A program made the translations under genes and the position numbers. Shown here piece by piece: positions 6,966 to 22,913 of a stretch of DNA of 64,000 nt. The stretch's first letter is position 1. Every line of letters starts with the position of its first letter. This stretch comes from Pantoea cypripedii (GTDB lineage: Bacteria > Pseudomonadota > Gammaproteobacteria > Enterobacterales > Enterobacteriaceae): the NCBI RefSeq assembly GCF_002095535.1, contig NZ_MLJI01000001.1, forward strand, positions 1,125,604 to 1,189,603. Reading direction: 5' to 3'. Under the pieces are notes generated by a model. It had not been told where the DNA came from and did not search any database. It saw only the letters and a list, made by a program, of their open reading frames with translations.

Positions 6966-7042
6966 GCGCCCTTAGCTCAGCTGGATAGAGCACCGGCCTT
7001 CTAAGCCGTAGGTCACAGGTTCGAATCCTGTAGGGCGTGCCA
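6966..7042 (+). tRNA. argU: tRNA-Arg (anticodon UCU)
   Basis: A 77-nt cloverleaf with encoded CCA: acceptor GCGCCCT/AGGGCGT, anticodon loop CTTCTAA, T arm ACAGG-TTCGAAT-CCTGT. Position next to folD matches E. coli argU, where a prophage integrates. Two oddities: a G1-U72 pair and a C27/U43 mismatch at the top of the anticodon stem. The 3' end was restored by the integrated island. Confidence 0.95.
7024..7035 (+). other. Left attachment-site core of the island (attL)
   Basis: The 12-nt AATCCTGTAGGG in the T arm and acceptor of tRNA-Arg is repeated directly at 22902-22913. A P4-type integrase gene follows directly, the normal arrangement for tRNA 3'-end integration. Confidence 0.65.
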
Positions 7043-7156: not shown

Positions 7157-7205
7157 GGGGGCATCATTGGGGGCACTGGCCTGTTCAATGGAGTGAGATG
7201 CCCCC
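7157..7205. promoter_or_regulatory. Arm-type GGGGGCAY sites at the left end
   Basis: GGGGGCAT at 7157-7164 and GGGGGCAC at 7169-7176 are spaced 12 bp start to start; an inverted copy, ATGCCCCC, is at 7198-7205 just before the integrase start. The same pair with the same spacing lies inside the right end (22822-22841). I infer integrase or excisionase binding sites that may also autoregulate int. Confidence 0.5.
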
Positions 7206-7207
7206 AA

Positions 7208-8389
7208 ATGAAGCTCAATGCCCGTCAAATCGAGACTGCCAAGCCGAAAGACAAAGCCTACAAACTGGCTGACGGCGGCGGTCTGTACCTCGAAATCTTC
7301 CCCACTGGTGGTAAAAGCTGGCGGCTGAAATACCGCTTTGCAGGAAAAGAAAAGCGCGTGGTGTTTGGTTTGTATCCTGCGGTGTCACTTGCTCAGGCGC
7401 GGGGCAAGCGCGAAGACGCGAAAAGGATACTGGCCGCCGGTGGCGACCCCGGCGCGCTGAAGCAGGAAGCGAAACAGGCCAAAATCCTTGCGTTGAACAA
7501 CAACTTTGAAGCGATGGCGCGGGAATGGCACGAGTACAAGAGCGTGGGCTGGTCGAAGGGCTATGCTAACGACATCCTTGAGTACCTGCGCAAAGATATC
7601 TTTCCCCACGTCGGCAAAATGCCCGTCACTGAAATCAAATCGACCAGAATGCTCGAAGTGCTGAGGAAAATGGAGCAGCGCGGCGTGCTGGATAAACTAA
7701 AGAAAACCCGCCAGGCGTGTAGTCAGATCTATGCCTACGCCATCATAACCGGCAGGGCGGAGTACAACCCCGTCACTGATCTGGCCGGTGCGTTGAAAAG
7801 CCCGAAGCAAAAACATTTCCCTCATCTGCTGAATAATGAGTTAGGCGCGTTTATGCGCGCGCTCTGTGGTTATAGCGGCAGCCTGATGACTCAGTACGCC
7901 ACGCGCTTGCTGATGCTGACAGGGACGCGAACGATTGAGTTACGCGCTGCTGAGTGGCGTGAATTTGATTTAAGTAAAGGACTCTGGGAGGTCCCCGCAG
8001 AACGCATGAAGATGCGGCGTAAGCATTCTGTGCCGCTGTCTCGGCAGGCTGTTGAGTTGCTGGAGGAGATCCAGCAACTGACCGGGCGTGGGAAGTATGT
8101 GTTTCCGGGTAGGAGCAATGCCGGAAAGCCGATGAGTGAAGCCACGATTAATCAGGTGATCAAACGGGTTGGCTACGATGGGAAGGCTACAGGGCATGGG
8201 TTCAGGCATACCATGAGTACCGTTTTGCATGAGCAGGGGTATAACACCGCGTGGATTGAGTTGCAGTTGGCGCATGTGGACAGGAATACCATTCGCGGCA
8301 CGTACAACCATGCGCAGTATATGGATGGGCGGAGGGAGATGTTGCAGTGGTATGCGGATTATTTGGATGGGTTGAGGGATGGGGGTTGA
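7208..8389 (+). CDS. int: P4-type tyrosine integrase
   Basis: A 393-aa site-specific recombinase that inserts and excises the island at tRNA-Arg. Residues 1-90 are the P4-integrase N-terminal arm-binding domain (KLNARQIETAKPKDKAYKLADGGGLYL). The catalytic domain shows Arg241 in TGTRTIEL, His330-x-x-Arg333 in HGFRH, His356 in LAHV and the nucleophile Tyr366 in GTYNHAQY. All catalytic residues are present, so it is probably active. I start at 7208 (MKLNARQ) by family alignment; the upstream in-frame ATG at 7198 would add MPPN-type residues encoded by the putative operator. Confidence 0.92.
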   Translation: MKLNARQIETAKPKDKAYKLADGGGLYLEIFPTGGKSWRLKYRFAGKEKRVVFGLYPAVSLAQARGKREDAKRILAAGGDPGALKQEAKQAKILALNNNFEAMAREWHEYKSVGWSKGYANDILEYLRKDIFPHVGKMPVTEIKSTRMLEVLRKMEQRGVLDKLKKTRQACSQIYAYAIITGRAEYNPVTDLAGALKSPKQKHFPHLLNNELGAFMRALCGYSGSLMTQYATRLLMLTGTRTIELRAAEWREFDLSKGLWEVPAERMKMRRKHSVPLSRQAVELLEEIQQLTGRGKYVFPGRSNAGKPMSEATINQVIKRVGYDGKATGHGFRHTMSTVLHEQGYNTAWIELQLAHVDRNTIRGTYNHAQYMDGRREMLQWYADYLDGLRDGG

Positions 8390-8735: not shown

Positions 8736-10673
8736 ATGGAGATGGATGACTGGTGGTTTGGCTGGAAGGGGTTCACGCCCGAACGGCCTTGTCCAGGCAA
8801 GGTTGTGTTGATGGTTGGGGCGGGGATTTCCATAGAGAGCCCCACGCAGCTACCCGGCGGATACGCACTAACGGAGGCACTGCTCGACCATTTGCTTGAC
8901 GGCCATGCGGCCTCCGAAATAAAAACGGTGTTTAGCAAATGTGAGCAGTGGATGGGGCGAAGACTGCCGCGTCTGGAACACGTTCTTGATAAAGCGTTTG
9001 AACCGTCAACTATTGAAGGAGTCGAGCGTAGCGGTGCCGCGCGGGAACTGCTGCGCATCTTTTCCCAGCGTCCTCCGAATGCGAATCACCACCTGATTGC
9101 TGATTACCTGATTAAGCAACGTAGCTGGTGTATTACCACCAATTTTGATGACTGTATCGAACAGGCTGGGCGTCATCAGATCCCTGTGCACGTTATTGAT
9201 CCTGATACCAAAACCTTTGACATCCTGCATCGGGTATACGGCGAAGATTGGGGTATCATCAAAGTGCACGGCACCATAGAACACGGCTGTGCTGGGCTTG
9301 GCGCAACGCTTGCGGATCTGGAGCACGGGCTGCCAGAAGCGTTCAAAATGCTGCTCGAACAGGTTACAGTTCAGGCCGAATTGATGATTGTCGCGGGCTA
9401 CAGTGGTACCGACCATTTCGACATTAATCACTGGATCCGCGAGCGCTGGAACGGGGATCGCGCTACCCGATTGGTATGGATCGACCATCAACCGGAAGAG
9501 GTGGAAGAATTCTGGCGGCTAAGCAAACAAGAGAATCGTGAGCCGAGAGTCTACTGGCAAGGAGCCTTTGGCGGTATGAAGGTTCAGTACGGGCCAACGT
9601 CAGAGCTGCTGACCGCCCTACTGGGAATTTCCCGCAGGACGTTGGCCGATGCAGGAGACGGTAGCGATTGGTGGCGGACTGCCCTGACTGAATATTATAC
9701 CCCAACGGAGAAAGAAAAGTATCTTACCGGTACCCGGCTGGCCAGTTCGATCGGGCTTGGCCAACTGGCCGAAGAGCAGCTTCGCTATTTGAAGCGCCTG
9801 TTGGAGAACGACGATTTATTGGCGCCTTTTGAAGCTGAGATTTACTACTCCCGTGGGTTTATTGCCGGGGCGCTATTGATTCAAAACTATCTAAAACCCC
9901 CACACGAAAAAATCAGAAAAGTGAACCGTACAGGTCTAATTCGCGCTAAAGGCAAACCTGCAAAAGCACTTTTATTTTATCTTGCGCAGTGGTTAAGGAG
10001 TCCACGTAAACTCTCACTTGATGAGCAAATTGACGCGTTTGCCTGTCTGCTCGATATCGCTGAACGGAGGCAAAAATGGCGACTCTGGCAAAGTAAACCT
10101 TTACGGCGCTTGAGCGAAAAGATATGTAGCATTTTCTGTCATAATTTCATGAAAATTGAGAATGAAAATCTGCCTCTTTATCTGCACGGGAGGATGCAAA
10201 TGCAGTCCATTCGCATGGGCACCCTGTTTTACGATGAAGATGTCTTTTCCTTCGGCGAGGTTTGGAATTTACTATACCGCGAGAGCAGTCCGCCGAGTTT
10301 TTATACCCCGCATGGCCCGGCAATCCGAGGTTTTTATCTTATTGAACGCAGCACAGCCCGTGAGGAAGACCGCATCGCAGACCTGGTGCTGGCAAATATT
10401 GATTACGTCAATATCCTGCTTTCCGCGCTGCGGCGTCGCTGGCCTAAGGGCAGCCAAAGCGTGCTGAAAGAAAGGCAGTGGCGTGAGGGATATCAGGATT
10501 CGGGAGACCATGTTGTGACGTATATCGTGCAGTTGTTAAACGAAAGCTCACAGATCGTCAGCGCTCTCAACGCCCCACATTTGCAGATTCTGATTGCCAG
10601 AGCGTGGCTTAGGGCGGACAGCATTTTGGGCGGCATCGAATACTGGAAGCAGCAGCGACTGTATCTCGCTTAA
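8736..10673 (+). CDS. SIR2-domain protein, probable NAD-depleting defence effector
   Basis: 645 aa. Residues 20-240 are a SIR2-like NAD-binding fold: VGAGIS at 27-32, TTNFDD with Asn136 at 134-139, KVHG with His178 at 176-179, and GYSGTD at 221-226. Asn and His are the usual catalytic pair. The remaining ~350 residues match nothing I know and could sense infection. Related SIR2 proteins (ThsA, Dsr, SIR2-Argonaute) destroy NAD during phage infection. No TIR, Argonaute or HerA partner is adjacent, so this would be a one-gene system. The domain is clear; the defence role is inferred from the island context. Confidence 0.8.
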   Translation: MEMDDWWFGWKGFTPERPCPGKVVLMVGAGISIESPTQLPGGYALTEALLDHLLDGHAASEIKTVFSKCEQWMGRRLPRLEHVLDKAFEPSTIEGVERSGAARELLRIFSQRPPNANHHLIADYLIKQRSWCITTNFDDCIEQAGRHQIPVHVIDPDTKTFDILHRVYGEDWGIIKVHGTIEHGCAGLGATLADLEHGLPEAFKMLLEQVTVQAELMIVAGYSGTDHFDINHWIRERWNGDRATRLVWIDHQPEEVEEFWRLSKQENREPRVYWQGAFGGMKVQYGPTSELLTALLGISRRTLADAGDGSDWWRTALTEYYTPTEKEKYLTGTRLASSIGLGQLAEEQLRYLKRLLENDDLLAPFEAEIYYSRGFIAGALLIQNYLKPPHEKIRKVNRTGLIRAKGKPAKALLFYLAQWLRSPRKLSLDEQIDAFACLLDIAERRQKWRLWQSKPLRRLSEKICSIFCHNFMKIENENLPLYLHGRMQMQSIRMGTLFYDEDVFSFGEVWNLLYRESSPPSFYTPHGPAIRGFYLIERSTAREEDRIADLVLANIDYVNILLSALRRRWPKGSQSVLKERQWREGYQDSGDHVVTYIVQLLNESSQIVSALNAPHLQILIARAWLRADSILGGIEYWKQQRLYLA

Positions 10674-11028
10674 CGATGGCAGGCTATGGGTCGATATAGC
10701 ACAGCACTGTTTTCACCACCATTTCACGGACGTGTCTGATGCGCTCCATCGGAGCACATCGTCCCAGAAGAGCCTGGAGAAGGTGTAACTGTTGGCAACG
10801 TGGTAGAAGAAGTTGTTTATCAGAAGGTGAACGTCTTTGATTCTGGCCGTGCGGCAGAATAGCAGCTTCATTTCAGTTAATTGGAATAGATAGGTTCTTT
10901 CTTCTCCCTGCTACTCCGTGTTTGACTGCTTTGTGCCAGGAGCGGAACTTGCTTACATCGTACTATGTTAGTTTGCAGGGAACAGGTCACAGACAGTTCA
11001 AATGACGTTATCGACTGAGGACGGAATA
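10674..11028. other. Gap with a possible coding remnant
   Basis: 355 bp. A short open stretch around 10766-10851 reads EGVTVGNVVEEVVYQKVNVF and then a stop. It has no start or Shine-Dalgarno and looks like the tail of a deleted gene. Nothing else is supportable. Confidence 0.3.
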
Positions 11029-11301
11029 ATGATTACTTATCAAGATGCGATGGACAAGGCTTTGGATTACCTTAAAGGCGATGACATTCCAGTCGTAATT
11101 ACACTCCATGGCCGATTCTCAGAAGGCTGGTTCTATTGTTATGAATCGAGAGAGTATCTGGAAACGGGTGAGTTTTCTGCTCAGTTGGCAGGGAATGCAC
11201 CATTCATAATTGATAAAGATAATGGAGAAATTCACTCATTTGGAACTGCTTATCCGTTAGATAAATATCTGCAGGATTACGAACAACTAAAAAACAAATA
11301 A
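11029..11301 (+). CDS. yrhB: YrhB-domain protein (Imm35-like)
   Basis: A 90-aa protein closely resembling E. coli YrhB along its length (MITYQDAMDKALDYL...PVVITLHGRFSEGW...LAGNAPFIIDKDNGEIHS). YrhB has been described as a small heat-stable chaperone-like protein, and the domain also serves as an immunity protein in polymorphic toxin loci. No toxin is adjacent, so it may be an orphan immunity gene. I start at 11029 after GAGGACGGAATA; an ATG at 11002 lacks a ribosome-binding site. Confidence 0.8.
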   Translation: MITYQDAMDKALDYLKGDDIPVVITLHGRFSEGWFYCYESREYLETGEFSAQLAGNAPFIIDKDNGEIHSFGTAYPLDKYLQDYEQLKNK

Positions 11302-11398
11302 CGTCTGCATCTCGCTCATGTCGGACTAAGGTCGACAAGGCGAAAGCTTCAGAATATCAAACGTTAATTTATGGGCAGCAGTTCGTGGGGGCAAAATT

Positions 11399-11635
11399 AT
11401 GAAGCATGAGCTATGGACAAATGAAGATGGTTTAGATTTGTTTTGTCTTGCCGGTCCACAGGGAGAATCCGCTCGTAAATTGCTGGATCCGGACTACAGA
11501 TTAGTGTGGACATGTGATGCAGATTCCCACCTTGAAGCAATGAAAAGATATTACACGTTCCGTAACTGGGGAGAATATCAAACTGATTTTCCTGAACAGG
11601 ATAGTAAGACCTACAAAGAAATGGGATGGGAGTAA
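11399..11635 (+). CDS. Hypothetical acidic 78-aa protein
   Basis: Not recognised. It is small, acidic and soluble, and rich in Trp and Tyr (WTNEDGLD, WTCDADSHLEAMKRYY, NWGEYQ, KEMGWE). Start context is weak but the reading frame is clean. Together with the YrhB-type gene it looks like part of an orphan immunity array, because immunity proteins are often small, acidic and clustered. That is inference from size and position only. Confidence 0.5.
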   Translation: MKHELWTNEDGLDLFCLAGPQGESARKLLDPDYRLVWTCDADSHLEAMKRYYTFRNWGEYQTDFPEQDSKTYKEMGWE

Positions 11636-11784
11636 AAAGCACAACACTCATACATAACATAGCCGCCGGTGTTCTAATGTCTCCGCGACGTCCGCACTTC
11701 GCTCATAGCTGCCAGTTAGATTTTTCCGGGCTTTTATTTTGAAAAATGCGAGGTTCAGTGGTGGGCAACCCATACATCATCTTC

Positions 11785-11984
11785 CCCCACTTCCCCCCCA
11801 CTTTGGAGTCGTCCCACCTTTCCCCACTTCATTTTTTCATATCACCATAACTCATTGTTTATAAGTGTTTTTCATGACTTCCCCCACTTAACGTATATAT
11901 GCAAATGGGAAGTGGGGAAAATCAGCCTAAAAAGCGATTGTTGATACTGCTTCCCCCACATGTTCCCCACTTAATCCCCCACTT
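11785..11984. repeat. CCCCACTT repeat cluster
   Basis: The octamer CCCCACTT occurs at 11785, 11796, 11822, 11882, 11965 and 11977, and in reverse at 11910: seven copies in 200 bp, the last two within or at the 3' end of the following minus-strand fragment. They could be iterons or the degenerate 3' end of a repetitive coding sequence. The rest of 11636-11970 has no supportable gene. Confidence 0.5.
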
Positions 11985-12270
11985 TAAGATCATGGCAAAG
12001 TGGCCTGACATGCTCACCATCGCAAATAATCAGGCCTTCTTTTTTCAGTTTTTCCAGCCAGCGGTTAAATTTCTTGGAAACATCGAACCCCATTTTTCTC
12101 ATATCATCACGAAGCAAAGTACGAGTACATGGTTCACCGTAGGCAGTGCGCAAACGAATAGCTTTCCAGAGCGCCAGATGGTTTTCAGTCAAACGTGAAA
12201 TCCCGGCCAATTCAGCATTGCCTTCATCATCCGACTCATTGACTGGCCTTCCTTCATCCTTTGGTGCCAA
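11971..12270 (-). pseudogene. C-terminal fragment of an unidentified mobile-element gene
   Basis: About 99 codons with no ATG; the frame begins inside the 3' end of the truncated integrase gene. The protein (LTENHLALWKAIRLRTAYGE...LRDDMRKMGFDVSKKFNRWLEKLKKEGLI) looks like the winged-helix-like tail of an island primase or replication protein, but I cannot name the family. It is best read as the surviving 3' end of a gene joined to the integrase by deletion. Confidence 0.5.
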
Positions 12271-12796
12271 AAACGATACTCAATCGCTCAGCCCCCTGGC
12301 TCAGTTGCTTCTGCCAGGTTTTGAGGGAGGCGCAACACTGAACGGATTCCTGTGACCGCAACCCCAGCAAACAAGAGAGTTGCAGGGCCGCAGCCAGCCC
12401 CTCATCGAGCTGCTCGGCTTTTTGCATAATTTGCCGATATTTCTCTGAAGGAATCGCTAACTTCGTTCCTGCCCGACTACAACCACCGAGGCCTAATGCC
12501 CGGTTCGTCAGTCTTTCAGAGGACATCAGTTTTTCTCGTCCAGCCTGATCCAATACGGAACGCAATGCAGCCATCTCGTTTTGCAGGGTACGCGGAGCAA
12601 TCCCCTGCGAACGCCGTGCCGCGATATAGCTTTCGATATGCCTGGCTTTCAGATACTTGACGCTACGTACCTGAATATTGAGTGCCAGCAAATGGCGGCT
12701 AAATCTGTCGGCGATCCGCATACGATCATGCACCGTTTTATGGCTGCCCCCGGCCTGCTTCGCCAGTTGCTTCATTTCTTTACCTGTCTGACTCAT
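12254..12796 (-). pseudogene. Truncated integrase-domain protein
   Basis: About 180 codons of an integrase-domain protein of the type carried by integrative conjugative elements: an SAM-like N-terminal DNA-binding region (KTVHDRMRIADRFSRHLLAL...IESYIAARRSQGIAPRTLQNEMAALRSVL) and the start of the catalytic domain (LLGLRSQE). It stops after SIVFGTKG, before the later catalytic His and Tyr residues, so it cannot recombine DNA. I start at 12796 behind AAAGGAAAAACGG. Confidence 0.65.
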
Positions 12797-12852
12797 CCGT
12801 TTTTCCTTTTTAAAATTCAATACCGATTTGCTTCCCTGGCGCATGGCAAATA

Positions 12853-15103: not shown

Positions 15104-15379
15104 ATGTTGGTTAAAAATATAAGAAAAACAGTATGTTCTGAATGGGTGATGAGAAACAGTCTTTACTGGATGAGTACTCTTAGTCGATGGAGACTTGAAG
15201 AAAACGACTTTGAGTGGGTAGTGTCTTTTGATACTTACAGTAGGGAGGTCGAGTTCGAGTTTGAACGACTCCTGAATGACTACAAGTTGAGGGAATGCCT
15301 TCATAGTCAAACCGGAGATGTAAGAGCTTCAATCATAGGTAATGTTCTCAAGAGCATTGATTCGAGACTGTCTCAATGA
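15104..15379 (+). CDS. hxsD: His-Xaa-Ser system protein HxsD
   Basis: 91 aa. The motif LLNDYKLRE (residues 57-65) is the signature for which the HxsD family was first named, and NSLYWMS near the N-terminus also fits. Its biochemical role is unknown; it may present the substrate to the maturases. It is the first gene of a four-gene operon with overlapping stops and starts (ATGA with hxsB). The start follows AGGAAAGAGGTTGAT. Confidence 0.85.
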   Translation: MLVKNIRKTVCSEWVMRNSLYWMSTLSRWRLEENDFEWVVSFDTYSREVEFEFERLLNDYKLRECLHSQTGDVRASIIGNVLKSIDSRLSQ

Positions 15380-16770
15380 ATACCATGCCGTTTAACTTTG
15401 ATAGGTTGAATGATGGCAAAGTTTTCATCAGCAACCTTGCTGGTTTTCACTACTTCGTTGAAGACGAAGAACTTAAACTTCTTGCTCTAAATCATTTCAC
15501 TCAGGATCACCCTTCTTCAGCAAAGCTAGAAACTAGACTGTTCGTTACAGATGAATCTAATCAGCTTTTAGCTAAAGCATCCTTAAGTTCTGGCTTTGCA
15601 AAACGACTAATGAATGAATTAGCCGTTAGACCCATTTTTATGATCGTACCGACATTACGATGTGATCATACTTGCAAATATTGCCAGGTTAGTAGGGCAG
15701 CTATTGGAGCTGATGGATACGACTTGGATCCGGCTCTGATTCCTCAAATAATCTCTGCGATAAAGAAACTTGGAACTGCACCGTATAAAATTGAAGTGCA
15801 GGGTGGTGAGCCATTGCTGAGATTTGATCTGGTACAGATGATATATGAAGAATGCCAGCACATACTTGGTCATGATACTTTTGAGATGGTTATTGCAACC
15901 AGTTTATCATTGCTTGATTATTCAATAATCGATTGGGTAAAGGATAGAAATATCACCTTCTCAGTTTCACTTGATGGAAATGAAAATGTTCACAACAAAA
16001 ATCGTATTCTTAATGGAGGGGAAGCCCACTCCAAAGCTGTTGTTGGCATAAAAAATCTCCATGAGAAACTTGGCGAAAATCGTGTTGCGACAGTTACCAC
16101 TGTTACTAAGGAACTTACCACAGAACCTGCTTCGATAATTCAAGCACACCTGTCGTTAGGCTTGAAAGATATGTTTATCAGACCGGTAAGCCCTTATGGA
16201 TTTGCTCACAAGCAAACTTTTACTTTTTCCATGTCTGAGTATTTTGATTTTTATGATCAATTAATGCGGGAAGTCCTCTGGCATAATCAGAGAGGAAATT
16301 CTGTGGTAGAGCATTCCGCTGCAATACATCTGAAACGCATCTTTAATCCGGGTTTTAGTGGTTATGCAGATTTGAAGTCACCAAGTGGTGTTGTACTCAA
16401 TTGTATTCTTTTCAATTACGATGGACGAGTATATGGAAGCGACGAAAGTCGTATGCTTCAGAAAGTAAATCAAGATGCTGATTTCAGTGCCGGGAAGTTT
16501 GATTCGCTGTCTTTTCGCAGTAATGAATACTATCGTTCTGTTTTGGCATCCTCATTCAACTTTGCTATTCCAGGCTGCGACACTTGTGCCTATCAGCCTT
16601 TTTGTGGGGCTGATCCCTGTCAGAACATCAGTGTTCATGGTGAACCTATTGGAGACAAGAGTCGGTCAACCTTCTGTCAGTATCACAAAGGTATGTTCCG
16701 TTACCTCTTGAATGAAATTTCCCAGAAAGGAGCAATGGCGGAGATGCTCAAAGGCTGGGCCTATGTCTGA
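15376..16770 (+). CDS. hxsB: His-Xaa-Ser system radical SAM maturase HxsB
   Basis: A 464-aa radical SAM enzyme. The SAM-binding [4Fe-4S] cluster ligands are Cys96, Cys100 and Cys103 in RCDHTCKYC, followed by a GGEPLLRFD motif. A C-terminal SPASM-like cysteine region (CDTCAYQPFCGADPC...FCQYHKG) would bind auxiliary clusters. It is predicted to modify HxsA; the chemistry is not established. The start overlaps the hxsD stop (ATGA) and its end overlaps hxsC. Confidence 0.92.
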   Translation: MNTMPFNFDRLNDGKVFISNLAGFHYFVEDEELKLLALNHFTQDHPSSAKLETRLFVTDESNQLLAKASLSSGFAKRLMNELAVRPIFMIVPTLRCDHTCKYCQVSRAAIGADGYDLDPALIPQIISAIKKLGTAPYKIEVQGGEPLLRFDLVQMIYEECQHILGHDTFEMVIATSLSLLDYSIIDWVKDRNITFSVSLDGNENVHNKNRILNGGEAHSKAVVGIKNLHEKLGENRVATVTTVTKELTTEPASIIQAHLSLGLKDMFIRPVSPYGFAHKQTFTFSMSEYFDFYDQLMREVLWHNQRGNSVVEHSAAIHLKRIFNPGFSGYADLKSPSGVVLNCILFNYDGRVYGSDESRMLQKVNQDADFSAGKFDSLSFRSNEYYRSVLASSFNFAIPGCDTCAYQPFCGADPCQNISVHGEPIGDKSRSTFCQYHKGMFRYLLNEISQKGAMAEMLKGWAYV

Positions 16771-17875
16771 GGTATTGAGGAACGATATCTTTCACTTTGC
16801 ATCTGAATCCCCTGTACCGCAGGGATTCTATCGGTTGTGTAAACAAAAGCCCGAAGATCCACAATTCTATCTTCCAAATTTATTGGTTACGGGGGCTATC
16901 CCTGTTTCACCGTTACCTGCATATTTCTCTGATTCGGTGTCCGGTAAATACTTATACGATTCGATAGAAGATGGTGATATCGGAATAGTTAATAATGGCA
17001 ATATGCTCAGGGTAATTTTGTCCCGGAGAGCCAATCACAATACTGTTTTGGTAACTGAGAGATGCAACAACAGTTGTTTGTTTTGTTCTCAACCACCTAA
17101 GACAGGAAATGATGACTGGTTACTCAGTCAGTCAGCATTGGCTATAGCCTCCTTTGCTATTGATGGAGTCGTTGGTGTAAGTGGGGGAGAGCCTCTCCTG
17201 TATGGGGAGGATTTCTTGCACTTCCTGGATTTCATTATTGAGAACTCTCCAGAAACTGCACTACATGTTCTATCAAACGGGCGTAAATTTTCTGATGTGG
17301 CCTTTACTCAGCAGATTAAAGAGCGAAGTGAAAAAATCAAAATCACTTTTGGCATTCCGCTTTATTCTTCAAGGCCGTCTGTGCATGACTATCTGGTTGG
17401 AAGTGAGGGTGCATTTAATGAGACGGTCAGAGGGTTAATCAATGCTGGTAACTCAGGCATTAACATCGAACTGAGAGTCATCCCGACTCAGGGTAATTAT
17501 ACAGAGCTTGATGACATCGTAGAGTTTGCTGGCCGAGTGTTCTCCAACATTAACCAGATTTCCCTAATGGGGCTGGAATCAATTGGTTGGGCTCGTAAAA
17601 ATTGGTCATCAATCTTCATTGAGCACGATAGCTATAGCGATAAGATTCTTTCGGTTGTAGATACTGCACTCAGGTCAGGAATCCCTCTGACCATCTTCAA
17701 TTACCCATTGTGCCACCTTCCTGAGAGAGCACGCGGTTTTTCTACACAGTCCATCTCTGACTGGAAAAATTACTATCCCAAAGAGTGTGATCAATGCACT
17801 CAGAAGTCTTCTTGTGCTGGTTATTTCAGTTCATCAAAAGGCCGTTTTCATCAACCTCCGAGACCAATAATATGA
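16763..17875 (+). CDS. hxsC: His-Xaa-Ser system radical SAM maturase HxsC
   Basis: The second radical SAM enzyme of the system, 370 aa. Cluster cysteines are Cys101, Cys105 and Cys108 in RCNNSCLFC, with GVSGGEPLLYG following. A shorter cysteine-containing tail (CDQCTQKSSCAGYF) replaces the full SPASM region. I start at 16763 (MSEVLRND), overlapping the hxsB stop by 8 bp; the longer frame from 16712 lies fully inside hxsB. Paired with HxsB it probably acts on HxsA. Confidence 0.92.
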   Translation: MSEVLRNDIFHFASESPVPQGFYRLCKQKPEDPQFYLPNLLVTGAIPVSPLPAYFSDSVSGKYLYDSIEDGDIGIVNNGNMLRVILSRRANHNTVLVTERCNNSCLFCSQPPKTGNDDWLLSQSALAIASFAIDGVVGVSGGEPLLYGEDFLHFLDFIIENSPETALHVLSNGRKFSDVAFTQQIKERSEKIKITFGIPLYSSRPSVHDYLVGSEGAFNETVRGLINAGNSGINIELRVIPTQGNYTELDDIVEFAGRVFSNINQISLMGLESIGWARKNWSSIFIEHDSYSDKILSVVDTALRSGIPLTIFNYPLCHLPERARGFSTQSISDWKNYYPKECDQCTQKSSCAGYFSSSKGRFHQPPRPII

Positions 17876-18507
17876 AAAAGTTTAACCTCGCAGCTCTGCT
17901 TCCGGGTTTTTTGGCTCTTAATAACTCTGTATGGGCAAGTGATTCATCAACTGGTGCAAGTGATTTACCGGGCATGACCTTAAATGAACATGATCTGGTT
18001 ATAGCTCCTCTTAACACTGAAGTACCGTTTTATATTGCAGGACATCGTAGCCATAGCTCTCACCGGAGTCATAGCTCACACCGGTCTTCATCAGGTGGTG
18101 GCTACTATGGTGGTGGTTCTCCTTATTATCCAAAGACATACAGCACACCCAGCACTTCTGACTCTTCAGGTTCAGGAACTAGCTCATCATCGTCTTCTTC
18201 ATCGACCCGTTCGCTTCGTTCTAACAATACCGATAGCTCTACGAGCACGACCTCTGCCGGAACGACCGGAGCCAATCGTGCAACGAATGGTCTTACTTCT
18301 GATGTTGAAAAACGTAAGCGCCTGATCATGAGGGTTCAGTTTGCACTGCTTGATAAGGGCTATTACAACGGAAATATTGATGGGAATATGGGGCCAGCAA
18401 CACGGACCGCTATCAAAAATTATAGAGTAGCAAATGGTTTACCTACTCCTGCAAGAGAAACTCTTGATACTCAGTTATTAAATTCATTGAATATATTAGC
18501 CCGATAG
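17872..18507 (+). CDS. hxsA: His-Xaa-Ser repeat protein HxsA
   Basis: A 211-aa exported protein and the predicted substrate of HxsB/HxsC. Residues 1-23 are a signal peptide (MKKFNLAALLPGFLALNNSVWA). Five tandem H-x-S units occupy residues 58-72 (HRSHSSHRSHSSHRS), followed by a Gly/Tyr patch and a long Ser/Thr-rich linker. Residues ~145-208 form a peptidoglycan-binding domain (RVQFALLDKGYYNGNIDGNMGPATRTAIKNY). The start overlaps the hxsC stop (ATGA). The design suggests a modified histidine-serine cluster tethered to the cell wall; its function is unknown. Confidence 0.92.
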   Translation: MKKFNLAALLPGFLALNNSVWASDSSTGASDLPGMTLNEHDLVIAPLNTEVPFYIAGHRSHSSHRSHSSHRSSSGGGYYGGGSPYYPKTYSTPSTSDSSGSGTSSSSSSSSTRSLRSNNTDSSTSTTSAGTTGANRATNGLTSDVEKRKRLIMRVQFALLDKGYYNGNIDGNMGPATRTAIKNYRVANGLPTPARETLDTQLLNSLNILAR

Positions 18508-18585: not shown

Positions 18586-20214
18586 ATGTCAGTAAGTTAT
18601 AATATTTACAGGATGCCACATAAATCACTGCCAGAATTGACGAAAAAAATCCTGCGAGAAGGCCTTATTGAGCAGAAGTCTATTCTTCATCAGGGGTATC
18701 AGATGAAATTTTATTTTTCTGATAAATTAAAAGGAAATGAGGTATGGTGGTGGGAGGTTTTCAGTCATTTCTTTAATGAAGATATTGAAAAACCTTATAA
18801 TATCTTTTATTTCGGTCTGTTAATAGGATATAAGGAGAAAGAACCTGAAAATTGCTATCTGATCAGTCTGGGTAAATCACATTTCTATCTTAGTAAGTTT
18901 ATAGAAATAGATTTTGGGCTAAATGTGGCAATGCGTATAGCGAACGATGAGAATATCTTGCTCAAAAAAAGTAGATTCTTTTGCGGTGGTAAAAATCAAG
19001 AGGCTTCATCATATTTACAGTTTGTAAAAGGTTCGTATCTACCAGGTGAATCAATTGAGCATTTGAAAACAAAAGCAAAAGAAACTGAGAGGTGGGGTGG
19101 AAATAATATAACATTTTCAGACTCAATTCAATTAAGTCTGGATGGAGCACCAACAGAATTGGTTGAAGTTTTCAACGATATAGATTCTTCGTTAAAGACA
19201 AAAGAAAATATCGAATTTCCAAAATCTGAAAAGATTACGGATGAATTTAAGATTAAAGAGCTTGACGATTATCTCCTTGGTTCAATTATCAAAGGGAATG
19301 CAAATGTTATTATAGATGAGATTCAATCATTCGGTTCGTCAATAATAATCGCTAATTCCTTATTAAGATTTAAGTTGCATACAAAAGTTGAAGGCAGTAG
19401 TAAGTATCAATACTCGACCGATTATATCACTGATGTAAAAATAGAGGATGTAAAAGAATTTATAACTGAACATGAAGTGGATAATATCAATAGAATATTT
19501 GTTAAGATAACAAATGAAACAAATGGCAGCCACACAAGCACTTTGAAAGAAATACTTAGCATTACGCATACTGAAGGAAGTGAGCATTATTTTCTTAAAA
19601 GAGGGCTTTGGAATAGATTCAACTCTGCTTTCATGAAGTATCTATCTGTTTCTTTATGTTCAATTGATTTTGAACTTAAAGATGATCTGAAGGAGGCTGA
19701 TTTCAACGCATGGAAACTTGTTAAAGCTAAGGAAATTGCAGATGGTAAAGCCAAAGATAAATTAGAATATAGAGAGTATTATTTCAATGAGAAAATGTCT
19801 CTTGATAAAGGATATGCTCTTTTAGATCGTCAGCTTAAGAAAATACCTTCACTCAGGGATGACGGAAAGGATTACAATGTTGAAATTGCAGATCTTTACA
19901 AAGGCGGAGAGCTTATAGCTGTCAAGATATCGGATAAGCCGCATGATCTGATTTATAATGTCGAGCAGTCTAAAACAACTGTTCAGGCTATAAAAAGAGG
20001 CGTTTTAGAGTTCGACGATCCTTTGACGGATGTAGTTTTATGGGTCTCCACAACTAATAAAGCAAAAAAAATAATTGATATCAATTCGATTCAATTTCTC
20101 TTGGCGGTACAATCGTGGAAGGAGGTAGTTGAAGGATTTGGTTTGACACCTAAAATATATTATTCTTATCATGAAAAACAGAAGGAAAAGAAGGGTGCTG
20201 AAAGTAATCCTTAA
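18586..20214 (+). CDS. TIGR04141/DUF6119-like sporadically distributed protein
   Basis: 542 aa, charged, soluble, with no membrane segment or nuclease motif that I can identify. Features such as KGSYLPGESIEHLKTKAKETERWGG near residues 147-171 and the C-terminal half (FNEKMSLDKGYALLDRQ...VKISDKPHDLIYNVEQSKTT) fit the TIGR04141 (DUF6119) family as I remember it; the assignment was not searched. It starts 78 bp after hxsA on the same strand, with AAGAGG as ribosome-binding site, and may be cotranscribed. Function unknown; its patchy distribution suggests a role in genome defence or conflict. Confidence 0.6.
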   Translation: MSVSYNIYRMPHKSLPELTKKILREGLIEQKSILHQGYQMKFYFSDKLKGNEVWWWEVFSHFFNEDIEKPYNIFYFGLLIGYKEKEPENCYLISLGKSHFYLSKFIEIDFGLNVAMRIANDENILLKKSRFFCGGKNQEASSYLQFVKGSYLPGESIEHLKTKAKETERWGGNNITFSDSIQLSLDGAPTELVEVFNDIDSSLKTKENIEFPKSEKITDEFKIKELDDYLLGSIIKGNANVIIDEIQSFGSSIIIANSLLRFKLHTKVEGSSKYQYSTDYITDVKIEDVKEFITEHEVDNINRIFVKITNETNGSHTSTLKEILSITHTEGSEHYFLKRGLWNRFNSAFMKYLSVSLCSIDFELKDDLKEADFNAWKLVKAKEIADGKAKDKLEYREYYFNEKMSLDKGYALLDRQLKKIPSLRDDGKDYNVEIADLYKGGELIAVKISDKPHDLIYNVEQSKTTVQAIKRGVLEFDDPLTDVVLWVSTTNKAKKIIDINSIQFLLAVQSWKEVVEGFGLTPKIYYSYHEKQKEKKGAESNP

Positions 20215-20229: not shown

Positions 20230-20421
20230 ATGGCGAAAGGAAGAGCATGTTGGATATATATTTTCCAAGCAGTCAATCAGGACATGGCGAACATTGATAC
20301 TCAGGAACTATCTGGGTTTCGTGAACTGGCAAAGCATTACGCTGCTCTCTCAGATCAGAACATTACAGCACTCATGAAGATTAAAGAACTGGTGGAGATT
20401 TGCCATGACTGCAAAAACTAA
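20230..20421 (+). pseudogene. Truncated RelE/HigB-type toxin remnant
   Basis: 63 codons resembling the C-terminal half of a RelE/ParE-fold toxin (IYIFQAVNQDMANIDTQELSGFRELAKHYAALSD...LVEICHD). The N-terminal half is missing; the TIGR04141-type gene ends 15 bp upstream. It overlaps the antitoxin start, the usual toxin-antitoxin layout. Probably inactive. Confidence 0.6.
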
Positions 20422-20728
20422 ATTCAAAAGCCCTGCTTTCGAAGCTATCCATAGCGCAGCTTCCGGGATGTTTAAAGCTGGTGTGATCCCACAGAAAACT
20501 ATGCGCATCTTTGATGCAACCTGCATCGAAGATGTGGCAGAATTACAACCATCTGAAATAAAAAGGCTACGTGAAAAACTAAAAGTGAGTCAGCCAGTTT
20601 TCGCCCGTTATCTGAATACCAGCGTTTCGACCATTCAGAAATGGGAAACAGGGATGAAACGCCCCAGCGGGATGTCCTTGAAGCTGCTGTCTGTGGTGCA
20701 AAAGCATGGGCTGGAAGTGCTAATTTAA
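20405..20728 (+). CDS. HigA/NadS-like antitoxin, HTH domain
   Basis: 107 aa. The C-terminal half (residues ~55-105) is a Cro/CI-type helix-turn-helix: LREKLKVSQPVFARYLNTSVSTIQKWETGMKRPSG. Start at 20405 after GGTGGAGATTTGCC. It normally neutralises the toxin encoded just upstream and represses the pair. Since that toxin is truncated, this antitoxin is an orphan and may act only as a regulator. Confidence 0.8.
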   Translation: MTAKTKFKSPAFEAIHSAASGMFKAGVIPQKTMRIFDATCIEDVAELQPSEIKRLREKLKVSQPVFARYLNTSVSTIQKWETGMKRPSGMSLKLLSVVQKHGLEVLI

Positions 20729-21468: not shown

Positions 21469-22644
21469 ATGATTTACCAATGTTATTCATGTAATAAAAT
21501 ATCCTTCGAAGTTAGCTGTCCATGGTGTTCCGGAGTGATACCAACAACATCGACTCAATGGGGTATCAAAGCTCCATCTGCATCTGAGATGCAACGAATG
21601 ACACCTCTAAATCCGTCTTTTTATCCAGAGTTTCAATACCGTTCAAAAGGTATGTTTAAAGATTTATTTGGAAAAAAGAAGGAATTGTCACAGCTTAACC
21701 AACTGCTAGAGAATGTTCTGGAGAAATACTCTAGTTTTAAGGACCCATACTTTACAAACTTCATTTATACATCCAGGTTTTCTCATGAAGGAGAAATAGA
21801 TAATAACTATTCGGAAGATAATGGTGTTTACTCAGAATTACGATTGTTTCGGGAGGTTCTTGTCCGAAAAGGATTTAATGAGCTTGAACAACTACCATTG
21901 TTATTGGGTAAACTACTACTGACAACATCCTTCAATGCTTTATATAATGGCTTTTCAAAAGAAGTTCAAAGGCATATTAAGCCAACTCTGACTGAATCCT
22001 TAAAATCGTGGATAGAAGAGGCTGGTACAACTTTTCGAGCAGACCTCTCATTGTTCTTGTTTTATGTTTGGAAAAATAGAGTGCAGTTTTCAACGCTAGA
22101 ATTCAATGATAATGCGGAAACTACACCTGGTGTACCGTTAGTTTCATTTGATAATGTTAAAAACTATCTCGCTATATGCGAAAGTATTTATTTCGATATT
22201 TTAGTTGAAAGATTAGCGACTCGGCTTGAGTATTTCAATCCAAATAAATTTGTCACAATGTATCTGGTTGATGCAATGGATGGATTTCAGTTCGAAGACT
22301 TTTTGGTCGAGATATTTCAGACTATGGGATATGACGTTAAGGAAACAAAGAGGACTCAAGATCAAGGTGCTGACTTATTCGTCACTCGTTTTGGTAAAAA
22401 TATGGTTATTCAGGCGAAAAACTACTCCGGGTCTGTGGGTAACTCAGCCGTGCAACAGGTTATCTCTGCAAAAACATTTTATGGTTGTGATGAAGCAATG
22501 GTAGTTACAAACTCTTATTTTACTAAATCCGCAAAAGAATTGGCTGATTCTGCCACGGTTCGTTTGATAGACAGAGATGAGCTACAGAATTATCTGGATG
22601 ATTATAACCAGAAAATCATTGAAGATTTCCAATCACATTCATAG
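21469..22644 (+). CDS. Mrr-type restriction endonuclease with N-terminal zinc ribbon
   Basis: 391 aa. A zinc ribbon is formed by Cys5, Cys8, Cys17 and Cys20 (CYSC...CPWC). The middle ~240 residues are not recognised. The C-terminal ~110 residues are an Mrr-type PD-(D/E)xK domain: FEDFLVEIFQTMGYDV, DQGADLFV with the catalytic Asp, and VIQAKNY with the QxK motif. Such proteins cut foreign or modified DNA. No methylase is adjacent, so it may be modification-dependent. The start follows AAGGAGATACTG. Confidence 0.85.
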   Translation: MIYQCYSCNKISFEVSCPWCSGVIPTTSTQWGIKAPSASEMQRMTPLNPSFYPEFQYRSKGMFKDLFGKKKELSQLNQLLENVLEKYSSFKDPYFTNFIYTSRFSHEGEIDNNYSEDNGVYSELRLFREVLVRKGFNELEQLPLLLGKLLLTTSFNALYNGFSKEVQRHIKPTLTESLKSWIEEAGTTFRADLSLFLFYVWKNRVQFSTLEFNDNAETTPGVPLVSFDNVKNYLAICESIYFDILVERLATRLEYFNPNKFVTMYLVDAMDGFQFEDFLVEIFQTMGYDVKETKRTQDQGADLFVTRFGKNMVIQAKNYSGSVGNSAVQQVISAKTFYGCDEAMVVTNSYFTKSAKELADSATVRLIDRDELQNYLDDYNQKIIEDFQSHS

Positions 22645-22901: not shown

Positions 22902-22913
22902 AATCCTGTAGGG
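22902..22913 (+). other. Right attachment-site core of the island (attR)
   Basis: AATCCTGTAGGG repeats the tRNA-Arg T-arm/acceptor sequence at 7024-7035. The flanking bases differ on both sides. It defines an island of about 15.9 kb. Confidence 0.6.

Follow-up and report, generated by a model that had tools for sequence, protein, structure and literature searches.

An exchangeable gene slot behind the His-Xaa-Ser operon of Pantoea cypripedii and its relatives

A 64,000-nt stretch of the Pantoea cypripedii genome (contig NZ_MLJI01000001.1, positions 1,125,604 to 1,189,603; hereafter the window) carries at positions 15104–18507 the four overlapping genes hxsDBCA of a His-Xaa-Ser (HXS) operon. 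This operon is widespread and already catalogued, hence not itself new, and its setting is the informative part: directly behind hxsA lies an exchangeable slot, frequently filled by known or candidate defence genes, and in P2-like prophages of Escherichia coli the operon sits as a moron. Because in relatives anti-phage systems take the place of the slot’s contents, and because of the P2 moron position, we lean, without proof, towards a role in mobile-element conflict. The best explanation we can offer, and a tentative one, is that HXS, as a complete modification operon of the kind that makes ribosomally synthesised and post-translationally modified peptides (RiPPs), supplies the unchanging part of a mobile conflict cassette.

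A profile scan of genome contigs, for which six HxsB sequences were aligned, yielded 539 confirmed stretches, and the best 80 of these were surveyed as loci. The first gene after hxsA lies on the same strand within 150 nt in 31 of 45 loci, as against 2 of 40 for the first gene before hxsD; both counts derive from 46 loci that include relatives and are not independent, and a Fisher test on them ignores kinship. The set contains L123, disrupted by an insertion sequence (IS), two loci with spurious-looking open reading frames (ORFs; L094, L026) and L029, which is cut by a contig end; in six of the 46, either the upstream gene or hxsB could not be called. Excluded before counting were L100, L101, L108 and L111 (the same places as L028, L024, L021 and L029, respectively), L095 and L099 (no hxsA or hxsD recognised) and L105 (partial hxsB), while the E. 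coli regions L144–L147 were added after the count. As the slot is non-random in strand, distance and content, ‘only an annotated HXS operon’ was rejected as a full answer.

PADLOC recognised in the slot Gabija GajA and GajB (L011), QatA–D (L012), a SIR2/ThsA-like protein (L097), an NTPase with a PRTase as in type III-A retrons (L103; Pfam PRTase-CE) and, in a gammaproteobacterial metagenome-assembled genome (L030), PDC-S28 together with LmuA. Elsewhere the match was the second gene, behind a 97-residue gene (PDC-S06 in L018) or behind a DUF6119 gene (MkoC in L017), or lay 320 nt from hxsA by ORF call (PDC-S19 in L028). Gabija in L116, L128 and L129, Qat in L098 and an ATP-grasp set in L120 were assigned by annotation or by ORF size and resemblance, outside the PADLOC runs. 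The model for the latter is L102, whose slot (9973–12087) holds a repeat-bearing precursor-like protein, a relative of ATP-grasp peptide maturases (230 bits, cut-off 350) and a third gene; in L120, three genes of similar sizes and with the same start are annotated as hypothetical. The L102 set is thus a RiPP-like cassette adjoining a RiPP-like operon. No specific PADLOC match was obtained for two of the L102 genes, the 97-residue gene of L018, the slot of L015 (weak matches only) or a gene pair found in marine loci.

The slot state changes at least 22 times on an HxsB tree of 35 hand-chosen rows, with none, other, IS and prophage counted among the states, many weak inner branches (7 of 31 starred) and no shuffle comparison. 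Different cargo can sit behind near-identical HxsB, e.g. in L129 and L098. Seven locus pairs were compared base by base, ungapped. In all five pairs with different cargo, the identity of 20-nt blocks is 75–95% up to the hxsA stop codon and then 5–50%, whereas in both pairs with the same cargo similarity persists past the stop. Upstream, similarity ends ~0.1–0.3 kb before hxsD, and from these two bounds we take a short upstream stretch plus hxsDBCA to be the constant unit.

Bounds of this kind are also what any conserved anchor beside variable genes would give. The slot could accordingly be an accident of mobile-element architecture, a conserved operon at which homologous recombination exchanges unrelated cargo without any shared role, and this would suit the copies in P2-like prophages and the single one read from a Klebsiella plasmid, none of which has intact cargo directly behind hxsA. 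Such an accident would, however, leave unexplained the frequent known or candidate defence genes in the slot, on the same strand and within 150 nt. We consider it a quite real possibility, somewhat short of probable, and even under this reading HXS may be a conflict gene. The likelihoods that we attach to this and the other rival readings overlap with one another and are not meant to add up to a whole.

Two further features were noticed next to the operon. Similarity to the start of the first gene of the ATP-grasp cassette (L102, L120) persists after the hxsA stop in L115, a P2-like prophage, and in L005, a Klebsiella plasmid, as if, to judge from the sequence, this cargo had once been present there and was then lost. 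The 0.7 kb upstream of hxsD contain an 8-bp tandem repeat, TTAGCTTC, in eight copies in L098 and two in L129, two loci with near-identical operons; six others have one copy, and the window and the remaining loci (32 checked) have none. The repeat could switch expression on and off.

In the window, the cargo slot is filled by a DUF6119 gene (18586–20214, forward strand; PF19614, 80.9 bits; TIGR04141, 61 bits against a cut-off of 35), which begins 78 nt past the hxsA stop on the same strand and, by this spacing, is probably co-transcribed with hxsA. The gene had no match among plasmid records and its product no useful solved relative (best E value in the PDB 0.092). Among 392 genomes of the window’s family, DUF6119 occurs in 11 and HXS in 19, with both in seven compared to ~0.5 expected (Fisher p 5.6e-8, ignoring kinship); in each of the seven, the DUF6119 gene immediately follows the operon and is read in the same direction. 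Two DUF6119 types, not linked to each other by phmmer at an E value of 1e-4, fill the slot; of 5426 complete E. coli genomes, 71 match the one and 31 the other. Where an E. coli DUF6119 row was paired with a listed HXS row, it stood directly behind the operon in 29 of 30 cases; in the thirtieth, IS elements lie between.

Fifteen E. coli HXS regions were read by their annotation. Seven have DUF6119/TIGR04141 in the slot, one of these genes being frameshifted and another lying beyond IS elements, while an ATP-dependent nuclease with a UvrD helicase and an L102-like set occur in one region each. Six (L115, L117, L118 and L144–L146) are P2-like prophages by annotation, in which HXS lies between ogr and gene D, the latter on the opposite strand; an IS66 element interrupts D in L117 and L146, and an IS lies within hxsC in L118. 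A query spanning hxsA to D matched 1126 of the 5426 genomes, 28 of them over at least 80% of its length, and among the 25 rows listed 24 represented the D side alone. Among prophages without HXS, the ogr–D interval measures ~40 nt in L169 and L172, and in L170 and L171 holds two hypothetical genes or a DUF3800 gene. As the interval is empty or otherwise filled in these prophages, HXS behaves as a moron.

Operon DNA matches 154 of the 5426 E. coli genomes, 146 over at least 80%, and always in the chromosome; hxsB alone finds 151. Among 72,556 plasmid records, 345 match (301 over at least 80%), 343 being from Klebsiella. HxsB was detected in 19 of the 392 family genomes (18 above the cut-off) and in 5 of 369 genomes of a class-wide sample. 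All four HXS genes are present in a Leptospira phage record, and viral contigs carry HXS, too. Some HXS elements (L006, L116) are seated at the transfer-messenger RNA site, which the available text of PMC10121019 describes as an E. coli hotspot.

The four genes of the window lie on the forward strand and overlap by 4 (hxsD/hxsB), 8 (hxsB/hxsC) and 4 nt (hxsC/hxsA). hxsD (15104–15379; TIGR03976, 84.6 bits against a cut-off of 50) encodes a helper protein containing LLNDYKLRE. It is followed by two radical S-adenosylmethionine (SAM) maturase genes, hxsB (15376–16770; TIGR03978, 559 against 370 bits; Radical_SAM, 51 bits) and hxsC (16763–17875; TIGR03977, 397.1 against 267.9 bits; Radical_SAM, 41.1 bits), the latter with the motif CNNSCLFC, and by hxsA (17872–18507; TIGR03979, 172.9 against 121.65 bits) for the His-Xaa-Ser repeat substrate, which is presumably exported. 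For hxsC we chose the ATG at 16763 (the ORF as listed begins at 16712), and for hxsA the start at 17872 (listed from 17794). A first-pass annotation, made from the sequence alone, had called a complete HXS operon of four overlapping genes here and proposed a search against TIGR03976–TIGR03979; ORFs and family models bear the call out, all four proteins passing the curated NCBIfam cut-offs, and the LLNDYKLRE of HxsD and the CxxxCxxC motifs of both radical SAM enzymes are present as it described. We regard hxsDBCA as a regular member of the known HXS kind and, going by its sequence, as a complete and probably working RiPP-like modification operon. In 81 HxsB proteins, the cysteines C96-x3-C100-x2-C103 and the C-terminal C401, C404, C410 and C434 are at least 97% conserved, and D59 and R63 are invariant in 49 aligned HxsD. 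Solved relatives of HxsB and HxsC are distant only, and a PDB sequence search with HxsD returned nothing better than an E value of 0.39.

HxsA begins with a signal-peptide-like stretch (codons 1–23, 17872–17940), judged by eye and unusually conserved. Five consecutive H-x-S units, HRSHSSHRSHSSHRS, occupy 18043–18087 (residues 58–72, the first histidine being residue 58), and a Ser-rich linker leads to a peptidoglycan-binding domain, PG_binding_1, at 18331–18444 (residues 154–191; PF01471, 28.2 bits against 23). The earlier description of an exported, wall-binding repeat protein agrees with this, although its signal peptide is so far a reading by eye. The five units are not a product of chance: none of 200,000 shuffles of HxsA reached that number, and the ratio of non-synonymous to synonymous change (pN/pS) in the repeat is ~0.006.

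With at least four H-x-S units as the filter for picking substrate ORFs, 84 such ORFs were found in 81 of 83 loci (the 80 loci, the window and two annotated loci). Their runs reach up to eight units, mostly five or six. Forty-nine are long forms, with a tail of more than 60 residues after the run, and 35 are short; x is mainly S or R in the former, S or A in the latter. Some loci (L041, L044, L060) encode two substrates per single maturase pair. In 28 distinct Enterobacterales hxsA genes, the repeat has a pN/pS of 0.006, with 0.034 for the stretch just before it and 0 for the Gly/Tyr stretch that follows; the signal peptide stands at 0.043, the wall domain at 0.087 and the linker at 0.272. A pS above 1 in the H-x-S stretch results from the simple way in which paths between Ser codons were counted. 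Purifying selection on the repeat is extreme. The signal peptide is constrained no less than the wall domain, unlike the linker, in a set chosen from 30 genes by its start pattern, which somewhat favours signal-peptide conservation; the two genes left out (L015, L104) have very similar starts. Being so conserved, the signal peptide may perhaps double as a recognition sequence for the maturases.

From these parts we propose the following mechanism. HxsA would be made as a precursor with the signal peptide, conserved stretch, five H-x-S units and wall-binding domain that are readable in its gene. Before export, HxsB and HxsC, assisted by HxsD as an adaptor, may act on each unit in the cytoplasm, most likely linking the histidine ring to the side chain of the serine at i+2, in the manner of cyclophane-type maturases; we regard such a His-Ser crosslink as the likeliest modification, with our judgement evenly divided on whether it is the right one. 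Once exported and held on peptidoglycan by its recognised domain, HxsA would display a rigid, positively charged histidine array. In conflicts fought at the envelope, this array may benefit the element’s host, most likely by keeping out phages or mobile DNA that arrive later; exclusion of invaders is the use that we would name first, with limited confidence. The gene behind hxsA, here DUF6119, would then act as an exchangeable second weapon, probably on the same transcript. That the whole constitutes an unrecognised envelope-level defence or superinfection exclusion, in which mobile elements and P2-like prophages would turn a wall-anchored, radical-SAM-modified histidine array on later arrivals and offer behind hxsA a socket for an additional, intracellular defence gene (DUF6119, Gabija, Qat, SIR2 or another), is a more doubtful proposition.

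Several results weigh against a conflict cassette. None of the HXS proteins has a specific PADLOC match: HxsB and HxsC match pVip, a radical SAM family, weakly (at most 25 bits), and HxsD and HxsA give no match at all. Both DUF6119 types (two proteins scanned) likewise lack a specific match. DUF6119 occurs without HXS in 4 of the 11 family genomes having it, with a second copy in G590; it is present in 3 of the 369 class-wide genomes, together with HXS in the window’s own genome only, and in just 6 of the surveyed 80 loci, all Enterobacterales. Of ten upstream genes scanned by PADLOC, two matched clearly (L015, L020) and one weakly (L011), so part of the defence enrichment belongs to the islands and could be hotspot behaviour. 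In Pseudomonas, HXS has the same flanking genes in several loci, as a resident locus would. The adaptor role proposed for HxsD drew no support from sequence: hhalign found no similarity of HxsD or of the HxsB N-terminus to PqqD (probabilities of 0.20 and 0.13 percent, respectively) in a comparison with 14 PqqD rows, of which three were empty and one a fragment. Finally, promoter and terminator scans were no richer than shuffles (14 versus a mean of 17.0, and 2 versus 3.0), so that the idea of a single transcript rests on spacing.

The upstream defence genes and the resident-looking Pseudomonas loci would also suit a passenger that benefits the host independently of phages, acting at the wall by binding metals, by redox chemistry or in envelope stress; mobile elements would transport it as they do other useful genes, and the defence genes would be a hotspot effect. 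A wall-held histidine array lends itself to copper or zinc binding, and noursin, going by the available part of PMC10206099, binds copper. In six surveyed loci of marine bacteria, moreover, a MauG-like diheme peroxidase gene follows in the same orientation ~3.4 kb after the hxsB start, and five of these loci add a small partner; in L023, the one scanned, the two score 618.5 (TIGR03981) and 185 bits (TIGR03982). This points to periplasmic oxidation and keeps metal or redox chemistry alive as a strong rival to a conflict role. Yet in the 15 annotated E. coli regions and the one annotated plasmid, no gene adjoining the operon carries a metal-handling or redox annotation, such genes being further off: paoD in the host flank of L121 and, in L005, a class III alcohol dehydrogenase gene behind IS26 and fecI ~14.5 kb off. 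In addition, the downstream slot is tight and co-directional and the upstream side is not, and a P2 moron is less expected for pure metal chemistry. We give a host-benefit passenger serious weight without thinking it probable.

It is unlikely, in our estimate, that HxsA is an offensive or signalling product, released from the wall in the manner of a bacteriocin while its neighbours give the producer immunity or defence. The short HxsA2 forms, which end in free H-x-S tails, would fit such a product, as would the RiPP-like ATP-grasp cassette in the L102 slot, which L120 resembles; bacteriocin-type RiPPs co-located with defence genes are on record in the available portions of PMC12715929 and PMC11118758, as part of a general observation that RiPP clusters occur near defence genes. 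The wall-binding domain, however, is retained in all 28 aligned hxsA genes, the gene behind hxsA is not constant, and neighbour clustering, in which no search was aimed at exporters, proteases or immunity genes, revealed no further partner common to most of the 80 loci besides hxsA–D.

The first-pass annotation had placed the operon on a mobile island, and so it looks. The presumed integration target is a tRNA-Arg (tct) gene (6966–7042, forward strand; ARAGORN), adjoined by an ORF (7193–8389, forward strand) that we take, by reading, to be tyrosine-integrase-like. A 12-bp copy (22902–22913, forward strand) of the 3′ part of the tRNA gene (7024–7035) is a candidate for the right island end; weak by itself, it adds modest support. 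The same island encodes a SIR2-domain protein (8736–10673; PF13289, 36.2 bits) and, downstream of the DUF6119 gene, a helix-turn-helix (HTH) antitoxin-like gene (20405–20728) and an Mrr-type restriction endonuclease-like protein (21469–22644). A second, shortened phage-type integrase (12254–12844), to which Integrase_1 matched only over positions 1–79 of 149, is apparently a remnant of another insertion.

In literature searches that mostly did not cover subscription journals, we found no experimental study of HXS, in keeping with the initial remark that, so far as known, only comparative genomics defines the family, and no link of HXS to defence cargo or P2 prophages. The accessible text of PMC9062424 cites Haft and Basu (2011) for the HXS system. 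As far as its available part goes, PMC8446631 lists P. aeruginosa hxsA–D, uncommented, in a set of island genes to which genes of conjugative elements, phages and CRISPR also belong, and in that of PMC10250203 an unspecified radical SAM protein is a conserved flank of P. aeruginosa core defence hotspot 1. The antiviral hotspots of P2 and P4 phages (PMC9122126, main text) resemble our findings in that P2-like prophages carry variable cargo; HXS differs in lying between ogr and D, and the terms HXS, His-Xaa, radical SAM and ogr are all absent from that text.

HXS is a curated family of hitherto unknown purpose, and the company it keeps now gives a concrete guess, testable in the easily tested E. 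coli. Were an envelope defence to prove true, radical SAM chemistry would gain a new use in immunity, and the next candidates to consider would be DUF6119 and the ATP-grasp peptide cassette.

Among known systems, the closest is the HXS system itself (TIGR03976–TIGR03979), reportedly that of Haft and Basu (2011), with the same operon logic and H-x-S substrate; the window proteins are no different, and it is the setting that differs. MauG-associated HXS (TIGR03981/TIGR03982) has the same core, with its extra gene pair directly after hxsA or hxsC in marine bacteria. Both families are already listed by NCBIfam as HXS-associated, and the pairing was rejected as new. The window slot holds no MauG-like gene but the PF19614/TIGR04141 gene, followed by the HTH and Mrr-like genes. 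Cyclophane-type maturases join an aromatic residue to residue i+2, and H-x-S fits the aromatic-x-acceptor spacing of the cyclophane- and thioether-forming radical SAM/SPASM maturases YhhB, AmcB and PapB. Among the best 25 of 65 families, HxsB matches PapB (71.1 bits), YhhB (46.5) and AmcB (37.1) weakly, far below their respective cut-offs of 340, 445 and 425, and the HXS substrate differs from theirs in being a wall protein with five tandem His-x-Ser units. Noursin, as presented in the accessible part of PMC10206099, offers the likeness of a natural crosslink from histidine to a side chain that can bind copper, although it is a free peptide made by a lanthipeptide synthetase, whereas HXS pairs radical SAM enzymes with a protein of the cell wall.

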